From NCBI RefSeq assembly GCF_042453785.1, contig NC_091675.1, positions 880,501-944,500 on the forward strand: 64,000 nucleotides of DNA, read 5' to 3'. Source of the stretch: Malus domestica (Eukaryota > Streptophyta > Magnoliopsida > Rosales > Rosaceae). Position 1 is the stretch's first letter; each line of letters begins with the position of its first letter. The position numbers and the translations under genes are program-made. Below the pieces are notes generated by a model. The model ran no database searches and had not been told where the DNA came from. It saw only the letters and a program-made list of their open reading frames with translations. Positions 7,699 to 61,514 of this stretch are shown here, piece by piece.

Positions 7699-7878
7699 CT
7701 CTTCGTTTTTTTCGTTAGGGCGGAGTGCTAAAGATAATCATCCATGAGAAGCACATTCGTCTTCAAGTAGGTATGAAGATGACAAAAACTCTTCGTTTTT
7801 TTCGTTAGGGCGGAGTGCTAAAGATAATCATCCATGAGAAGCACATTCGTCTTCAAGTAGGTATGAAGATGACAAAAA
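7699..7878 (+). repeat. Exact 90-bp tandem duplication
   Basis: The 90-bp unit at 7699-7788 is repeated without any difference I can see at 7789-7878. It begins CTCTTCGTTTTTTTCGTTAG. Perfect identity means it is very recent or an assembly artefact. Confidence 0.95.
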
Positions 7879-8727
7879 CTTATGTAGACGATTTAAGACT
7901 ATGACAAAAACATGACATCTCATGTATTTTAGTTCTATCTGATGTAACGAAACTAAAATTTTCTATTATAATTTGATTAAATGATTGTTTAGAGCGGTGG
8001 GTTCCACATTAGAATGTCAATGACATCTACATCTCCACCAGCCCCATTGGATATATGTTGTGCAGTGTTGTAGATAGGGCCACATTTGCAAGATTAATCA
8101 CTTGAGAATGAAGTGGGTGACACCATTAAAAAGCAGATATGGTATCAAGTGGATTTAGGCAGTATAATTAACGATGAAACACTAATCCTTATATAATTAG
8201 TGAGAGATTATCTTTATATTTCTCTATGATGCACAAGCAAAAAGGACCACATCAGAATCACAGAATGCCATCAAGGTTATCTGAGCTGCATGTCCGACAC
8301 GTGTCGTCTATCGAGCGGTCGTTGGAATATACAATCGTTGAGCGTAGCTAAGTTAAACTAGGAATTAAGTGCTGGATTAATCTCAGAATTCGGCTAGTTT
8401 CAGTTCCAAGGTTGTTGAGCAGAGTCAAGAGGGCCCCGCCCTTTTACTGTAGCTCGATCTCAGCGTCAAATATGAACCGTACGATCATGGTTGTCTTCAT
8501 GATGGACAGAATATTAAAATTAAAAAAAATCACCGAATGGTCAAAATTCCGCAAAGCAATCTTACGGAAACGATGTCGTATTCGCCTTAGCCGTAATCCA
8601 CCAACCCACCAAACTAGGTGCTTCTATTGTTTTAGTAAGTGAGGTGGGGCCATGCCTCCATGGATAATGTTGATCGGGTCGGGTTTCATGGGGGTAAAAA
8701 GTACTTATCCTAAAAAACAATTATAAC
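7879..8727. other. Intergenic DNA, nothing recognised
   Basis: There is no recognisable coding potential. A G-box-like ACACGTGTC lies near 8297. The 76-codon frame at 8412-8642 looks like chance. Confidence 0.5.
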
Positions 8728-29341: not shown

Positions 29342-30757
29342 ATGGCTTGTGGTGCTGCTAATTTCACGTGTTTATTCGTCATGGCAATACTAATGCAAGC
29401 TTTCATGGTCGTGCTCTCTCAACCAGTCGAAGCAGAAGCAATCTCGAGGTCCTCGAAAAGATTCATCACCGTCGACAAATCCGGCAACGGCGATTACACC
29501 AAAATACAGTACGCAATCGACGCCGTGCCGTCAGGTAATGCTCAGCTTGTGTTTATTTGGGTCAAGCCTGGTGTGTACCATGAAAAAATAGTTGTACCTT
29601 CGGACAAACCCTATATAACAGTAAGTGGCACGGGTACTGCACATGAGACTGTAATAATATGGAACGAATGCGGAGAGATTTTTGATGTTGCCGTCTTTAC
29701 CGTGTTGGCTACCGATTTTATAGGCCGCTTTATCACCATTCAGGTACGATTATATACCTATGAAACAAGTTTCATATTTACTAAAGAACAGATTGTCGAT
29801 ATGTCATTGATAATGTGTCGTTACCATTGTAACCAGCAAAACGTACTAACATATTAACCCTAAACCAGTCACATTATCTATACATTATCGACAATTTCTT
29901 CACATGCATGCACATTAACGAATACTTTAATTTTCTCATTGCAGAATACATATGGAATTGGTGCGAAAGCAGTGGCGCTTAGAGTCTCGGCCGATAGAGC
30001 AGCATTCTACGCATGTAGAATTTTGTCTCGGCAAGATGCCTTGTTCGACCACGTCGGCAGGCACTACTACGGACACTGCTACATTGAAGGCGACACCGAT
30101 TTAATTTTCGGAAACGCTGCTTCTTTCTTCGAGAAGTGTCATTTGCATTCGCTTTCGGAGCACAAAGGAGCGATCACAGCACAACGAAGGTATGCGCCTT
30201 CCGATCAATCGGGGTTCACCTTCTTGGCATGCGTCGTCACCGGCGTCAAAACGGCACTACTAGGACGGCCGTGGGGTCCCTATTCGACAGTCGTCTTTGC
30301 GTATACTTACATGTCAAACGTGATTCTTCCAGAAGGGTGGGACGGATGGAGACTAGCACCCAACAACTTAAGTCATGTTTACTATGGGCAATACAAATGC
30401 TATGGACCGGGAGCCGAGACATCACAAAGAGTTAAATGGTCACAAAGCCTTACAAGCGAACAAGTTACACCCTTCCTTGATCAAGCGATTGCCCTTCAAT
30501 CCGAAAGCTGGCAAGATCGTTGGTCTCTCCTTCATCCTTACGGAGCAGAGCAAGGAAGCGTGGACGGTAAGAACAATATGGACCAAATAGGAGAGGATCC
30601 CAGCCCCATCGGAGAGGACGTGGGGGTTGGTTGGGACCCTGTGGAATGGAGTGGGGCGGAGGGGATGTCGATCAGCCCAGCGGAGGATATGTCGAGCTGC
30701 GAGAGTCCTAGGTCTCCCGGGATTTTTCTTTTTCTTCTTTTTGGTTTATTTGTTTGA
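29342..30757 (+). CDS. Pectinesterase-like protein, 404 aa, with an unusual active site and tail
   Basis: Two exons, 29342-29743 and 29945-30757, joined in phase at CAG|GTACGA...TTGCAG|AAT. The ATG at 29342 gives a clear signal peptide (hydrophobic residues 8-27), so the protein is secreted to the wall; an in-frame upstream start would spoil it. There is no PMEI pro-domain (group 2 type). Family blocks are GVYHEK (77-82), KAVALR (142-147), QDALFD (164-169), DTDLIFG (184-190) and LGRPWGPYS (240-248). The catalytic Asp165, Asp186, Arg242 and Trp244 are kept, as is Gln164. The usual Gln of QAVAL is Lys142, which should weaken the oxyanion site. After the normal end near residue 315 comes an extra tail of about 90 residues ending in a hydrophobic stretch (GIFLFLLFGLFV), reminiscent of a GPI-anchor signal or read-through into former untranslated DNA. 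It may de-esterify pectin weakly or be in decline. Confidence 0.82.
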
Positions 30758-37410: not shown

Positions 37411-37947
37411 TATGTCAATAAAAATATGTTTTGTAAATATGTTTTCGACTTGCCAAAGAATTTTTTTTTTTTTGCATTGTAAAAGCAATGTCTCAAATTT
37501 GACTTACTTGGACGTTGAGTTCAATTCCTTATTATTATTGAAGTATGAAACAAAAAACATAAGTTACGGGACCAAATTGAAAAGATCCTCAAGATTTATG
37601 AGGCAAATATGAAATTAACCCTTAAAAAAAAACTGTAAATTGAGAATGTCTTATCCAGTCCACCAGCCTTTGGTCATGGCTCACGAGCGTCTCGAGAAAT
37701 TGCGTTTACCGGGGGAAATTAGATTAGCAGTAAGTTACCGTTAGATTAGATTAATAGCATTTGTTTTTGTGCTAATGACGGGTTACTCATGTTTTTTGAG
37801 ATGACACTCCAAACTCCGAAGTGGAGTTTCTTGGCCCACCCCCCTAATTATTGCTTTTTTTCAATTACAATCCATATCTAAGTTCCAACTATGATTATGA
37901 TGGGCGATTAAGTATATAAAACAAAACTAAAAATATTTGTAATTCAT

Positions 37948-38600
37948 TGACACACCCCGTCCCGAAGGAGGGCATGCTGGCCGTCACGTGAGAGTGACGT
38001 AACCATTTGCACAGTACGGAAGCTTTAATTATACAATTTATAAGTTGATACACCCGAAGGTGAGTCCTAATTTTGTCCAATCTGTCAGAACACCGTCGAA
38101 TTCCTCGTAGTCACCACATCTTTGTGATTCCTGAACCTGGAGGGGCGCAAAACCAAAATTGAGTGGGTCAGTAAAACAATTCTTTTCCAAATCCAAACAT
38201 TTTTCAAAACGTTGTAACCCCTCTCCGTAAAACCTGTATATTTTCCCAGAAATGTAAAATATAAATATACATATAAATTCTCAAAACTTCATTTTTACTA
38301 TCTCAACATTATCTCTTTATCAATCATGCCATGCCATGTCATCTCAACATTTCTCATATTAATTATGCCATGCCACATCATCTCAACAGTAATAAGGTAT
38401 GAATGCATCAACATAATCATATCAGGTGCAAGAAAGTAATCAACCGTATGCCCTCTAATAGCCCTATACGGTTGAACCTAGAGCTCAAAATCTATCATTA
38501 TCACTCTACCGGAGTCACCTCTGTGACCCGTCCGGCCTTCTGCACACAAGTTACGCTCTAGTGCTTCTCATAAATCATCTGTGCACATAATCTAAGGTCA
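37948..38600 (+). repeat. Left arm of the palindromic element
   Basis: Inverse of 39513-40165. Similarity ends abruptly at CTAAGGTCA, after which the spacer begins. Confidence 0.93.
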
Positions 38601-38792
38601 CCCACCAGTCGGAATCTCACTAACACTCTCGCGACTGGTCTGTCGTACCCACTCCGCGTGGACTGTACGACTAGCATCTACTTGGATCCAAGGCGAGCGT
38701 GCGATGCGGTGAATACTATAAGCACTAAACCATGGTGCAGGATTTGAGCTCAATATATATCATCATCATCATAACAGTAATTAAATACTCAT

Positions 38793-38896
38793 CTGTGCGT
38801 CCACCGCACCATTTCATACATATGCATCATAAATCAATTCTTACCTGTGCGTCCACCGCACCAATTCATACATATGCATCATATATTAATTCATGC
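38793..38896 (+). repeat. 52-bp tandem repeat in the spacer
   Basis: Two copies (38793-38844 and 38845-38896) begin CTGTGCGTCCACCGCACCA and share CATACATATGCATCAT. They diverge slightly toward their ends. Confidence 0.85.
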
Positions 38897-39512
38897 ATGG
38901 CATTTCAACTCACATTTCTATATACTTTTCATATCTATTCTATGCATGGTATTTTACTTCCCGTTTTTCCACATAACTCATATGCATTTCATTTTAAACA
39001 TAATTTCATGCATTTTCAATTTCTGGGAAAACGTTAAGTATATATATATATACGGAAAACAAAACTGCCCACTCACCTGGAGTTCGTCCAACAACTCCCT
39101 AGCACCACACATCAAGGCGTCATGACGATCGCCGCCTAGAATAGTAATCAAATCCAGGCTCAGAATTCATATCGATAAAATATATAACTTATATAAAATA
39201 CGTCACTACGTTGATCGATCCGGAAGATCTGCCACTCAGATTTTAAATCCATAACTTCCAAAGGTCCACAATATACCTCTAGGACGTCGGAAAACCCTAA
39301 AAAAAAAAAAATAGGATTCCCGATTTGGGTACTGTTCATCATCTTTTAAATGGGAGATTTTCTTTGAATTTCAGGATCATAGGGAGCTTTAGAATGTTCT
39401 CACGATGCTCGGAGTGCATCGTTGGTAAGAAAAGGATCACGGGAAGCTCAGTTACGAAGTTTTACAGAGGTCGCCGGAGTTTCAAAGTTCCCCGACGTAA
39501 TTTCATGCAATT

Positions 39513-40165
39513 TGACCTTAGATTATGTGCACAGATGATTTATGAGAAGCACTAGAGCGTAACTTGTGTGCAGAAGGCCGGACGGGTCACAGAGGTGACT
39601 CCGGTAGAGTGATAATGATAGATTTTGAGCTCTAGGTTCAACCGTATAGGGCTATTAGAGGGCATACGGTTGATTACTTTCTTGCACCTGATATGATTAT
39701 GTTGATGCATTCATACCTTATTACTGTTGAGATGATGTGGCATGGCATAATTAATATGAGAAATGTTGAGATGACATGGCATGGCATGATTGATAAAGAG
39801 ATAATGTTGAGATAGTAAAAATGAAGTTTTGAGAATTTATATGTATATTTATATTTTACATTTCTGGGAAAATATACAGGTTTTACGGAGAGGGGTTACA
39901 ACGTTTTGAAAAATGTTTGGATTTGGAAAAGAATTGTTTTACTGACCCACTCAATTTTGGTTTTGCGCCCCTCCAGGTTCAGGAATCACAAAGGTGTGGT
40001 GACTACGAGGAATTCGACGGTGTTCTGACAGATTGGACAAAATTAGGACTCACCTTCGGGTGTATCAACTTATAAATTGTATAATTAAAGCTTCCGTACT
40101 GTGCAAATGGTTACGTCACTCTCACGTGACGGCCAGCATGCCCTCCTTCGGGACGGGGTGTGTCA
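39513..40165 (-). repeat. Right arm of the palindromic element
   Basis: Inverse of 37948-38600, including the outer end GGGACGGGGTGTGTCA next to the TTCAT duplication. Confidence 0.93.
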
Positions 40166-40170
40166 TTCAT

Positions 40171-49044: not shown

Positions 49045-52000
49045 AATTTAAATTAGACAGTTACATAAAGGATTTAATATATGACATCATATTTCAAAAC
49101 AAATTTTGGCACCAAAGGGACCAACACAAGCCAACGTTTGTGTTGGCCAACCTATTGGCTCAACTCCGGCTTAGCGGCAGCGTTGCCGTTCTGGTGATGC
49201 GGAGGTCGATTTTGCTGAGGCTGCTGCATGAACTGCTGCGGTTGCGTGTTCTGTTGAGCTTGGTGCTGTGGCTGCTGTTGCATTTGATAGAGGTTGAGAT
49301 GCTGCAGTTGAAGCATTTGCTGGTTCATAGATAATTGCTGCGCCATGCGGTTCGAAAGGTGGCCTTCTCCTCCACCGAGCTCTCCAGCGGCAAGCTTTAG
49401 TCGCTGCACTTCTCCAGTCAAGGCTTCATTTAAAGCTGCAACATCAGAGACACAAATTAAAGGAAGACAAAATTAGTCCAGATCCCACCTTCATCAGCAG
49501 GAATTGGTCGTAAACTAATATAAAGGGAGTCCATTTCCCATGTGTGCTAGGACATTCATCAGCTGATATTTGTATAAATATCGACACAGATGGACCGAGT
49601 GTCAATCAGCCTACACAGTTTGGCAATTGAACCACGGTAAAAATCATGGACGGAAAACCGATCGAGCTAAAATCTAGTTTTTGAGACGGGGGAGGAGAGG
49701 GGACAAGTGTCGATCAAGCTCAATCCCTTCAACCACCTCAGCCAGGGTCCAGCGCTGAGTTCAATTTCTCTGCAATCTCTCTCTTCCAATCAAAAGATCG
49801 ACTTTAGGCCTACATGGCTGTGTAAATACATAAAATCATTGAAGGTGGATACGAATGATTTATAATTACAAACGTTGGAGGCCTAAAATCATACCTTGCT
49901 TCCATTCATCCAAAAATCACATGTATGTTGGACGTAGTGATTTTTGGATGAATCACAAACAGACAGATACAACAGCACTTTTTCTATTTCCCATCGAGAT
50001 ACCACAGCACAGTTAGGATTGTTGAAACTAACTGAAAAGTTACCGGTTCCAAGGTTTTGAGGAATTGGTAGAAGTGAAATGAAAATCCAAAGTCAAGGAG
50101 GTGGATTACCAAAGACATGAGCAAAGAAACCTTATAGCTAGATAAGGTTACACCACCAAACTTACATGTAATAACACAACAACAACAAGAGTTGTTAATC
50201 AAATCCACATATTCTTAGGTATAACGATTATATTAGTTTTCAAATATCAATCATTTAACCTTGGAGGAAATAGAGGAAACTGTCTTTAGCCAAATCTAAC
50301 TTTATGTGAAAGCAAATTAGAAATGCATTTATGTATAAATCCTGAACTTTAAACATTTGTTTTGGTTGACGAGTTTTCACTAAAAATCATATAGTTTATA
50401 TGGCACATATGATAACTGCAATATTCAATATACATATAAAGAGCTGAAGAAAAAGTACAATACCATCTTTCAGTTGGGCCTGTTGTTCCAGAGCTTGAAG
50501 CCGAAATTTCAACTCATTGTTCTCACTTGTAAGACCCACAGAGTCTCTCTGGACACAAGCAGATAACATACAGTCAGTGATCATTTGATGAAGGTTAAGT
50601 AACTACGGAATCAGAAAACCTCAAATAGAATTGCATACCTGCAATTTTGTAAACTGGGCAGACAAAGTGGTTGCCTCCGTCTGCAGGGTTTGCACCTTGT
50701 GTTCCAATTCTTGAATGTATCGCATCTTCCTCTCCTTGGAACGAGCAGCTGACTGACGGTTAGCCAAAATCCTGGATGAATTTAAAAAAAAAAACATGAG
50801 CAAATTCACTAAACAAGACATCCAGTACAAACAAACAGATACAAGAAAGAATTTAAATGCATAATACCTCTTTGCACGTTTGGGGTCTGATAGTGCTATC
50901 TCAGCAAGTTTCTCATTTTCCATTATCTTTTTCAACTCAATTGCATTGAACTCACCACTTCCAAACTCCATGCTGAACTTGGCTGAGTTCCCATCAAGCG
51001 AAGTGCTGGGTGATTGTTGGCCTAGCGGCAGGGGTTTCAATGGTTCATCATCGAAATTCAGACTTTCCATATAACTATCCATTGAAATGCTCCTACAGTG
51101 TCGGACATTAGATACAACATCACCGCCAGCAGTCCTCTTGAGCCCTTCCCTCCTCTCATTCGGAAAACCAGAACCTGGCCTCTGCCTGCCGTTACCATTC
51201 CCCTTTAGACCACTTTCCACTTCATTATCACTACTCTCACACCCGTTTGTCTTCGAGCCACTGGCTCTGCTATCCAAATCCTTATCCTCATTACCGGACG
51301 AGTTCATTTTGTCAATGTTCTCCAAATTCATGTATGCATTAAACAAATCATCCGCAATCTCTCCCCCCGATTTCCTCTCATCCATTCCCTCTGCATTCCC
51401 ATTTGATCCCTGTTTCATCAGCTGATTTGGCTTTCCAATCCCTGAATTGTCTCTCCCAGAAGCCGATCCATCCAAACTTGTTTGCCGCCCAATGGGAATC
51501 AACTGAGGCGAAGATTGAATGATAGCTGAGAATCCTAACGGAACATCACTGTTAGAGCGCCGGTGCCTTCTGCGAGGGGGAAGGCCGTCTCCAGCCCAAA
51601 ATGCACTGCTATCAGCAACTGGGGAACGAAGTGAAGGTCCCTGAGAATTAACAGTCTCCTCCATGGAAACCTCAACTGAATTCGGGTCAGACGGAGAAGG
51701 ACCCGAGGGGTCGCGGTAAGTCAAAGGGCTCAATGGGGGCAGGGAATCAAGCGAGAAAACCGGAGGCTGAGACAAAGACCTAGTGTGGGATGACCCTGGG
51801 CTCAAATTCTGTGTTCCCAACTGCCAAGAACGCGATTGAGGCCTCATGACATTCGAAAAAGGCATCGAATTGTGGTTATTCGGGTGCGAAGGAGGAATCC
51901 CGGGCCTCTTACTGTTCTCAGGACTCAAACTAGGGGAAGATTGACGCATGGGGAGACCCATCTGAGAAGAAGGGTTGAAATTCGGAATATCTAAATTGCT

Positions 52001-52600
52001 GTTTGGCTTAGGAATCGAGAAAGACGACGACCCAAAAGTTGGATTAGGCCGCTGCTGCTTGGCACTACCACTACCACTACCACTACCAGTGTCATCACTG
52101 CCCTCCATTTAAGCTCAGCTAAAAAGCTCTAAAATCCTCGATTCATCCGAAAAAACCACCCAAGTTTCCTACTTTTTATCAAAAATCTATAAACCCGAAA
52201 AAACCCAAATCGAAGAAACGGAATCGAACCCTAAAGAGAGAATAAAAAAATGGGATTAGTCAAAGATTATGGGTGCAGAGTACCTCATTATATATAATCC
52301 CTTGGAGCTGACCGGCCTGCTTTGGTGCTCGGTAGAACTGCAGAATGGCAAGACAAGAGATAATCAAAAATGTCAAAAGGCGGTGATTTCACGGCGTTTT
52401 GATCATATAAAATTGTATTTGTTGACTACAAATACAATGTTGCCACGATGAACTTCAGACAATTTTCTCACAAGGACGCGTTTTTCTTTATGTATATATA
52501 TTTTTGATATTTTTTCCCTGCCTTTATCACCGGCTTCTTCTTCTCCTTGTATCGAGGGGACAAGTGTGTCTGTATTTTATATTAATTACGGATATTAACA
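49045..52600. repeat. Segmental tandem duplication, copy 1
   Basis: This block, including the bZIP gene and its 3' and 5' flanks, is related to 53735-56970 in the same orientation. The left edge is marked by GATTTAATATATGACATCAT (near 49070 and 53760) and the right edge by TTTATCACCGGCTTCTTCT (near 52522 and 56920). Exons are far more alike than introns. Confidence 0.85.
49152..52108 (-). CDS. Group I bZIP transcription factor (bZIP29/30/69 clade), 580 aa, copy 1
   Basis: Four coding exons: 50868-52108, 50639-50771, 50464-50548, 49152-49435, giving 580 residues. The N-terminal 390 residues are Ser/Pro-rich. Two HxRxxS motifs (HRRSNS at 182-187 and HCRSIS at 337-342) match the 14-3-3/CDPK sites that hold VIP1-type group I bZIPs in the cytoplasm until osmotic or mechanical stimuli. 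The basic region near 408-433 ([20 protein letters not shown]) has the N-X7-K spacing that marks group I, followed by a long leucine zipper across exons 2-4 ([23 protein letters not shown]...). The tail is Gln-rich ([11 protein letters not shown]). Start chosen at MEGSDDTG because the paralogue starts identically. A 5' leader intron with a donor near 52284 is suggested. It is likely a DNA-binding regulator of cell-wall, osmosensory or reproductive development genes. Confidence 0.93.
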
Positions 52601-53734: not shown

Positions 53735-56970
<3,236 letters not shown>

Positions 56971-60351: not shown

Positions 60352-61514
60352 CTACTTGATCGTGATGTAGCGATTTGTTCCATGCTTGGCCCAGTGGTCC
60401 TTGAGATCAACTGGGTTTGACAGATCATGGCCTTCAGCCGCAAGCCGGCTAAGTAGCTTGTTGAAGGCGCTCCCACTCATCTTCCTCCCACCTACACGGG
60501 CATGTCTTTTGTTGGGCACTGCCGGCAATGGGTACATCGACATTGTAGTTGTGCAACATGAGGATTGCCAACCCCCATTCCCCCACTTGTAGCATTGCCT
60601 GAGGAGACCAGTGCACGAGCACATGGGTGCCGGCATGGTCGACTCATCATAAGCAACCTGGTTCAACCCCAGGTCCTGACGTTTCCAATCAGACTTTGAC
60701 ACAACCACCTGTTTGTTAAGATCATCACCTCCACTGCCCATATCCTGGCCACCCTTCCAGTCATGTAATTTATCAAATGTCATCTTATTTAAGTCTTCGC
60801 TCTCCCTCTTCACTTTCCTTGGAGATTTTGAAGGTTTCTTATTTGGTTGCACCGTCTTGGGCTCCCTTGGTCGTTTGGGCTGCCGTGACTTTGTAGGCAC
60901 TGAAGCATCTGGTGGCATTGTGATGGAATCGCTCGTGTGCATATCCCTCGAACCATAAGAAGGTTCATTCATGTGCGGCATATGATGTACATGCTGCTGC
61001 TGCTGCTGCGTGTGGTGCACATGTTTGACCCCGCGGGAAATTTGGCAACCTGGTGGGCATGAAGATACATTGCCGCTGTTTAAGGAGTTATCCCGGTACT
61101 GAAGAGTTGCAATGGCGTTGTCTCGTTCCATTATCGCACTATTTCGTTCTGCAATTGCTGCGTCTCGTTGCAGGAATGCCATGTCTCGCTCTGCCAGGGC
61201 AGCCTTTTTCTCAGAAAAAGCCAAATTTCTTTCTTGAATAGCTGCATCTCTTTCGCCCATTATAGCCATTATCTGTTTCATTGATGGCTGATTGTGCATC
61301 AACCACTAGACAAAAAATGAGACAAAATATCATCAGATAAGCATTGAATATGCATATAACGCATACCTCATGTAAGAGTTTAGACGTGCCAATTCACATA
61401 ATATTCAATTTAAGTAGCTGTATCCAGAAAATTGCTTCCACATACCTGACCCTGAGCTGCTTTATACTGATCTGCTTTGTGCCTTCCATTTTCGCGATGG
61501 CCACCGTCATCCAT
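60352..61514 (-). CDS. BPC6: BASIC PENTACYSTEINE 6-type GAGA-binding protein, 340 aa
   Basis: Two coding exons, 61446-61514 and 60352-61305, give 340 residues (Arabidopsis BPC6 is 342). [18 protein letters not shown] is the group II BPC start. Residues about 30-95 form an alanine-zipper coiled coil built from repeats of the type ERDxAxxERxxA, used for dimerisation. Lys/Arg-rich nuclear-localisation stretches follow ([19 protein letters not shown]). The C-terminal DNA-binding domain carries five conserved cysteines at 252, 254, 261, 273 and 274 (CSC, RQCYKW, SSCC) and the family ending [13 protein letters not shown]. It binds GA-rich DNA and is known to recruit Polycomb-type repression. The ATG is the first base of its exon, after a leader intron. 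I see no defects. Confidence 0.95.

Follow-up and report, generated by a model that had tools for sequence, protein, structure and literature searches.

How can a chromosomal insertion come to carry the same retroelement terminus at both of its outer ends? The question is raised by a stretch of 64,000 nucleotides of Malus domestica (contig NC_091675.1, positions 880,501 to 944,500; hereafter the window), in which two inverted arms at 37948-38600 and 39513-40165 are identical at 652 of 653 positions, the sole mismatch being T at 38119 versus G at 39994. Such likeness far exceeds what chance would give for an inverted match of 653 bp. An earlier note, made from the letters alone, had described a near-perfect 653-bp palindrome; its inverted arms are real, but a 912-bp spacer separates them, making the structure an inverted repeat rather than a continuous palindrome. 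The same note had reported TTCAT duplicated exactly outside, and the motif indeed stands directly outside both termini, at 37943-37947 and 40166-40170.

Elsewhere in the window, a direct duplication (50329-52181 and 54754-56551, 84% identity) includes in its first copy an open frame at 50624-52108 on the minus strand with a bZIP domain (Pfam, 2.6e-07), and the matching frame of the second copy (55252-56481, minus) has no Pfam match at 0.001. An open frame of 317 aa at 60355-61305 (minus) matches GAGA_bind, the Pfam family of plant GAGA-binding proteins, at 4e-111; a Pectinesterase domain lies at 29864-30754 (plus, 8.6e-46); and a 92-bp stretch at 7699-7880 is perfectly repeated in tandem with a 90-bp step.

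The identity of the arms became clear from the host assembly (651 Mb, 19 contigs; the matches listed fall on contigs C1-C17). Among the best 40 of 2497 candidates, the arm sequence is spread over many contigs and often occurs twice in direct orientation, at a distance of 5.2-6.9 kb; self-comparison of 13 such two-copy loci revealed ordinary LTR elements. The LTR measures 2415-2850 bp in the six copies with a placeable LTR start and begins with TGTCAYAGCCCGT; the start proposed in the earlier note, TGACACACCCCG, is instead the reverse complement of the 3′ (U5) end. In locus L025, LTRs of 2415 bp start with TGTCACAGCCC and end with CGGGGTGTGTCA, AGTAT is duplicated at the element ends, the polypurine tract GAGGGGAGAT stands directly before the 3′ LTR, and the 5′ LTR is followed by GT and then TGGTATCAGAGC, which we take to be an iMet-type primer-binding site. 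Because the LTR 3′ end is followed by GT and this site, the arm terminus is a U5 end. The family thus has the structure of an LTR retrotransposon, with long direct LTRs, TG...CA termini, a 5-bp duplication, and primer-binding and polypurine sites (L025).

The internal region of L025 (~3.6 kb) retains only decayed coding remnants, including a Pfam RT_RNaseH match (8.9e-15); a Chromo match in L019 (7.4e-4) falls below the curated cut-off, and the two internal regions examined, those of L025 and L019, hold no stop-free stretch longer than 149 aa. To judge from these sequence remnants, the source family is probably a decayed one of Ty3/gypsy type, chromovirus-derived and non-autonomous. The upstream part of its LTR carries a diverged tandem duplication of ~150 bp (75-78% identity) in L023, L025 and L026 (L025:889-1216; L026:2885-3207). 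Apparent solo LTRs of the family lie at C14:8859825-8862602 and C11:27126176-27128876, where a U3 start and a U5 end share one strand at a distance of ~2.7-2.8 kb and neither primer site nor polypurine tract adjoins the ends; further such pairs occur among the matches listed.

Aligned with this LTR, the window element resolves into the following parts.

37943-37947, no strand: left target-site duplication, TTCAT.
37948-39285, minus: half 1, the final 1338 bp of the LTR in reverse complement, read inward from the U5 end and reaching about -1390 in the coordinates of copy L017; its outer terminus, TGACACACC, is the LTR 3′ end reverse-complemented.
37948-38600, minus: left inverted arm (U5 end), with one change private to it at 38119.
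39280-39285, no strand: fold-back junction, the 6-nt overlap TAGGAC common to both parental sequences.
39280-39515, plus: inner part of half 2, an upstream LTR segment in forward orientation.
39513-39515, no strand: same-orientation jump inside half 2, with the overlap TGA.
39513-40165, plus: outer part of half 2, which is the right inverted arm and the last 653 bp of the LTR; its terminus at 40165 is CGGGGTGTGTCA, the U5 end.
40166-40170, no strand: right target-site duplication, TTCAT.

The arms are thus LTR-derived and inverted, as had been suggested, but each represents only the last 653 bp of a 2415-2850-bp LTR, and the left half continues to match the LTR beyond its arm, to 39285. The copies closest to 39280-39515 are C16:12368817-12369046 and C16:12375276-12375505 (96.6% identity, among the best 40 of 164 candidates), which lie 6.5 kb apart and are presumably the LTRs of one element. 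Relative to copies L038 and L039, the TGA jump skips ~1392 nt of LTR in the downstream direction. Splicing was considered as the cause of this skip and set aside, since the two parts meet in an overlap of TGA instead of at GT...AG.

An ordinary LTR element or solo LTR has one U3 and one U5 outer end. The window element shows U5 on both sides and no U3, in keeping with the earlier view that both outer termini are the same end. We read it as two incomplete LTR-retrotransposon cDNAs joined into an inverted dimer that ends in U5 on each side and was inserted by integrase as a unit, and put the probability of this reading at roughly 0.6. Its insertion as one unit by retroelement integrase is well supported: the earlier proposal that a palindromic cDNA was integrated whole gains from the identical U5 termini, from the target duplication and from eight further cases described below. 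A DNA transposon of the foldback type, with long terminal inverted repeats, was ruled out; the termini are LTR U5 ends, the window junction occurs only once among the best 40 of 164 candidates scored, and the interiors of six comparable insertions all differ.

Is the window element a singular accident? The last 34 nt of the LTR occur exactly 592 times in the genome (277 forward, 315 reverse). We listed, by next base, 326 U5 ends that do not adjoin a primer site: 100 of 136 followed by A, 100 of 112 by T, 92 of 92 by C, and 34 of 34 by G and then A, C or G, this last class being searched with the last 32 nt of the LTR. A further 167 ends adjoin the primer site, and ~51 with GT but not the exact primer site, a number obtained by subtraction, lie outside the lists. 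Among the 326 listed ends there are eight outward-facing U5-U5 pairs within 12 kb, against ~0.5 expected by chance, together with one inward pair and three same-orientation pairs in the same range. The window element is a ninth case; its left end belongs to the unlisted part of the A class. The search for further inverted pairs flanked by 5-bp duplications, which the earlier note had advised, therefore yielded eight with the same terminus, although their arm lengths differ from that of 37948-38600.

All nine pairs have matching 5-bp duplications directly at the processed LTR ends, the fixed-length signature of integrase insertion. The duplicated sequences are nine different ones (TTCAT in the window, and ATTTC, CCACG, TCATG, TTTTA, AATTA, TATAA, CTATC and TATCC), and the chance of a single 5-bp flank match is ~0.0013. 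The insertions measure 501, 505, 1384, 2218, 2299, 2868, 7546, 8371 and 10,851 bp. An outward pair on C11 whose ends lie 18,967 bp apart exceeds the 12-kb limit and was excluded; on its right side the end is that of an ordinary full-length copy. Double-U5 insertions make up ~2.8% of the total (nine of ~318 insertions, that is, 326 listed ends minus eight second ends), a share that is only rough because each remaining end is counted as one insertion.

Overall, these data reveal a class of double-U5 insertions that recurs within a single plant retrotransposon family. As the same genome holds at least eight insertions besides that of the window, U5-U5 insertion looks like a recurrent by-product of the copying and insertion of this element. 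The class is known from this one LTR family. In 359 kb of fetched DNA plus the window there are 17 inverted pairs, none of which, outside this family, combines TG...CA termini with a 5-bp duplication. That scan was small and covered loci of at least 1.5 kb, which excludes L047 and L049, for example; it matched L048, L050 and the window element, the last also in two overlapping loci, and missed L055, whose duplication was read directly.

Errors of assembly and rearrangement are known to arise at long inverted repeats. The structure could in principle reflect an assembly artefact, an ordinary element that was inverted or duplicated later, or two independent insertions. We regard each of these as very improbable. 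Matching but mutually different duplications at both termini of nine pairs in nine, and the excess of eight outward pairs over ~0.5 expected, already speak against them, and the variants within the arms add to this. Compared with 39 family copies of the U5 end, the window arms share two variants found in none of them, and the one arm mismatch is private to the left arm, with the right-arm base present in 39 of 39 copies. On the duplications, the shared private variants and the arm-private mutations together, we reject artefact, later inversion and independent insertion. Gene conversion, which the earlier note had offered as one reason for the arm identity, is not needed, the single mismatch being private to one arm.

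The other cases compared with the same 39 copies vary in what their arms reveal. L049 has two arm mismatches and one shared variant, and L047 has four and two. L048 has neither mismatches nor shared variants, its 91 identical bases being uninformative. L050 shows 12 mismatches and 51 shared variants, part of the latter at the alignment edge, and L055, over its first 850 bp only, two and 145. Because L050 and L055 belong to a more distant subfamily, their sharing points to a common subfamily rather than to one source copy. In 20 of the 21 arm mismatches across five cases, one arm carries a base absent from all 39 copies (the exception, a base in L050, occurs in one copy), so that most differences between arms appear to be mutations that followed insertion, and the insertions seem to be of different ages.

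The internal order of the insertions bears directly on how two U5 ends came to be joined. Six cases were mapped against the family loci (the window, L047, L048, L049, L050 and L055); those on C7 and C14 and the 7.5-kb case on C4 were left out of this mapping. L048 begins with 91 nt of inverted U5 end, followed by 1294 nt of forward LTR. L049 consists of 150 nt of inverted LTR, 73 nt of inverted internal region and 40 nt of inverted LTR, then 257 nt forward, and L050 of 822 nt inverted, 134 nt of forward internal region and 1349 nt of forward LTR. L047, a divergent relative that maps at 76-95% identity and whose junctions have no exact placement, has 229 nt inverted, a poorly matched middle, and forward pieces ending in the last 78-79 nt. 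L055 (8.4 kb) opens with an inverted LTR, complete or nearly so, and ~3.1 kb of internal region, likewise inverted; a forward LTR follows, starting at about base 17 and running through to its end. The six fully read interiors are all different.

Beyond these six, L060, a 1.1-kb stretch of the C14 case, has an inverted LTR running into inverted internal region. The 10.85-kb insertion on C7 has a primer-site-adjacent U5 ~0.33 kb inside its left end; because of this inner U5, a simple minus strand of one LTR does not account for its left half.

Several features recur among the mapped cases. The halves are very unequal in four of the six (the window, L048, L050 and L055), and in L049 and L047 they are alike in length and different in content. 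Overlaps of 1-8 nt mark nine junctions in five cases (three in L049, two each in the window and L050, and one each in L048 and L055). In the window, L049 and L050 the sequence also jumps, with orientation unchanged, to other LTR parts or into the internal region. The long halves end near -1339, -1390 and -1465 (L017 coordinates); these positions are close but not identical, and we do not claim a common strong-stop end at the transcription start.

Could a single molecule have produced such structures? A minus strand might fold near its 3′ end, prime its own extension and copy itself back to its own U5, the resulting hairpin being opened later. L048, L050 and L055 are formally compatible with this, as one half contains the sequence copied in the other, and the private variants shared by the window arms would be expected from it. 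In the window, L049 and L047 (the last with its mapping at 76-95% identity), however, each half holds sequence absent from the other, and on the present mapping folding of one strand fails for these three because neither half contains the other. Moreover, a hairpin has one open U5 end, so that two-ended integration needs extra steps, and the fold region of the window has no unusual local structure (z 0.13). Self-copying of one strand is thus improbable as the general explanation. The earlier note had named self-primed or template-switching cDNA as the possible source: simple self-priming of one cDNA cannot yield a window element neither of whose halves holds all of the other, and template switching between two cDNAs fits better.

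In LTR retroelements, the U5 end is created as the minus strand is begun at the primer-binding site. Two such strands joined at their far ends would be the simplest origin of a linear DNA that ends in U5 on both sides. Under the inverted-dimer reading, one particle would produce two minus-strand cDNAs, probably copied from a pair of sister RNAs; as each would be started from its own tRNA at the primer-binding site, each would gain a proper U5 end. The 3′ end of one would then switch template onto the other at an overlap of a few nucleotides, and mutual extension would give a linear duplex of U5, inverted partial LTR, junction, partial LTR and U5, which integrase could insert by its two U5 ends. 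For the window, the first cDNA would have run 1338 nt; the second would have copied 653 nt, skipped ~1392 nt of template at TGA, continued for ~230 nt and joined the first at TAGGAC. Since the internal regions of L025 and L019 carry only decayed coding remnants, the proteins may have been supplied in trans by an autonomous relative. Unequal halves, such as 91 versus 1294 nt in L048, match what is expected of unfinished minus strands.

The main rival to this joining step is end joining by the host. Here two incomplete double-stranded cDNAs with U5 ends would have had their broken ends joined by microhomology repair, either before integration or after both U5 ends had been integrated at one site. 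The 1-8 nt overlaps fit such repair equally, the patchwork of L049 (LTR, 73 nt of internal region, LTR) resembles templated filler, and the inner primer-site-adjacent U5 of the C7 insertion also favors it. Yet filler segments in microhomology repair are expected to be shorter than the 73, 134 and ~230 nt inserted here. Joining of full-length cDNAs after integration, in turn, would require that most of both be lost, and insertions of 501 and 505 bp and a 91-nt half exist.

The two accounts also differ in what they predict for the opposite end of the LTR. If host repair joined broken cDNAs, U3-ended pieces should be joined as well and U3-U3 insertions should occur, whereas joining of minus strands predicts their absence. 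No outward U3-U3 pair within 12 kb was found among the 219 distinct U3 starts listed, the closest lying 22.9 kb apart. At the U5 rate, ~5.4 pairs would be expected, or ~4 after a detection factor of 0.75 that is itself a guess, giving P ~0.02 under rough assumptions. The control is thin: the starts searched were those preceded by A, C or G only (lists of 37 of 37, 100 of 862 and 100 of 103, with 18 shared), with patterns not equivalent in strictness to the U5 pattern. The lack of U3-U3 pairs thus supports, but does not prove, the joining of minus strands.

On balance, we consider host end joining unlikely, though less so than the folding of one strand. Template switching between two cDNAs is favored as the joining step by the unequal halves, the short-homology jumps and the lack of U3-U3 pairs in the lists, and it is from these features that we infer it. 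With more reserve, at somewhat under even odds, we suggest that LTR retrotransposons use U5-U5 inverted insertion as a regular side route. In it, two minus-strand cDNAs begun in one particle would be fused into a linear DNA that integrase takes up without a U3 end; a few percent of insertions would arise in this way, leaving ready-made inverted repeats in plant chromosomes, and annotation software would probably overlook them.

How does this class relate to known systems? It shares with an ordinary Ty3/gypsy insertion or solo LTR the LTR itself, TG...CA ends, a 5-bp duplication and integrase-type insertion, but ordinary copies have direct LTRs with one U3 and one U5 outer end, whereas in the window both ends are U5 and the halves are inverted. 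Retroviral and Ty1 autointegration products and inverted-segment circles are likewise aberrant retroelement DNA with an inverted part. Those products are circular, unintegrated dead ends of integrase attack within one cDNA; in contrast, the U5-U5 cases are linear chromosomal insertions with two U5 ends. Work by Shoemaker in 1980, going by its title, reportedly concerned cloned circular MLV DNA with an inverted segment, and J Virol studies of 1985 on defective retrovirus DNA and of 2006 on Ty1 circles and autointegration are said to be relevant.

Self-priming and template switching of retroviral minus strands, known to give failed or recombinant cDNA, are the proposed source of the inverted joins and short-homology jumps seen here. 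LINE-1 twin priming, which gives 5′ inversions, resembles our cases in its part-inverted copies, microhomology joins and target duplications; it differs in being target-primed, with neither LTRs nor integrase. Foldback DNA transposons and MITEs also have long terminal inverted repeats and a short target duplication, a likeness by which annotation software could mistake U5-U5 insertions for them. Unlike these elements, the present insertions have LTR U5 ends as termini and six different interiors, with no second copy of the window junction among the best 40 of 164 candidates. No description of U5-U5 inverted LTR insertions was found among the top-ranked papers of the open-licence full-text literature, seen mostly as titles and the starts of abstracts and including PMC11302176, PMC9744471 and PMC12789967; an earlier account in subscription journals is possible.

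If the inverted-dimer reading is true, retroelement integrase in living plants inserts DNA by two identical U5 ends, a single particle can start two cDNAs and join them, and reverse transcription that fails leaves in the chromosome a trace that can be recognised and dated. Tools that find LTR elements by their direct repeats would presumably pass over such insertions or label them foldback elements. A simple scan for U5 ends that are paired and flanked by target duplications would allow the question to be tested in any plant genome that has been assembled. For the family itself, the inverted LTR repeats could give rise to hairpin RNA, and hence to putative silencing of the parent elements.
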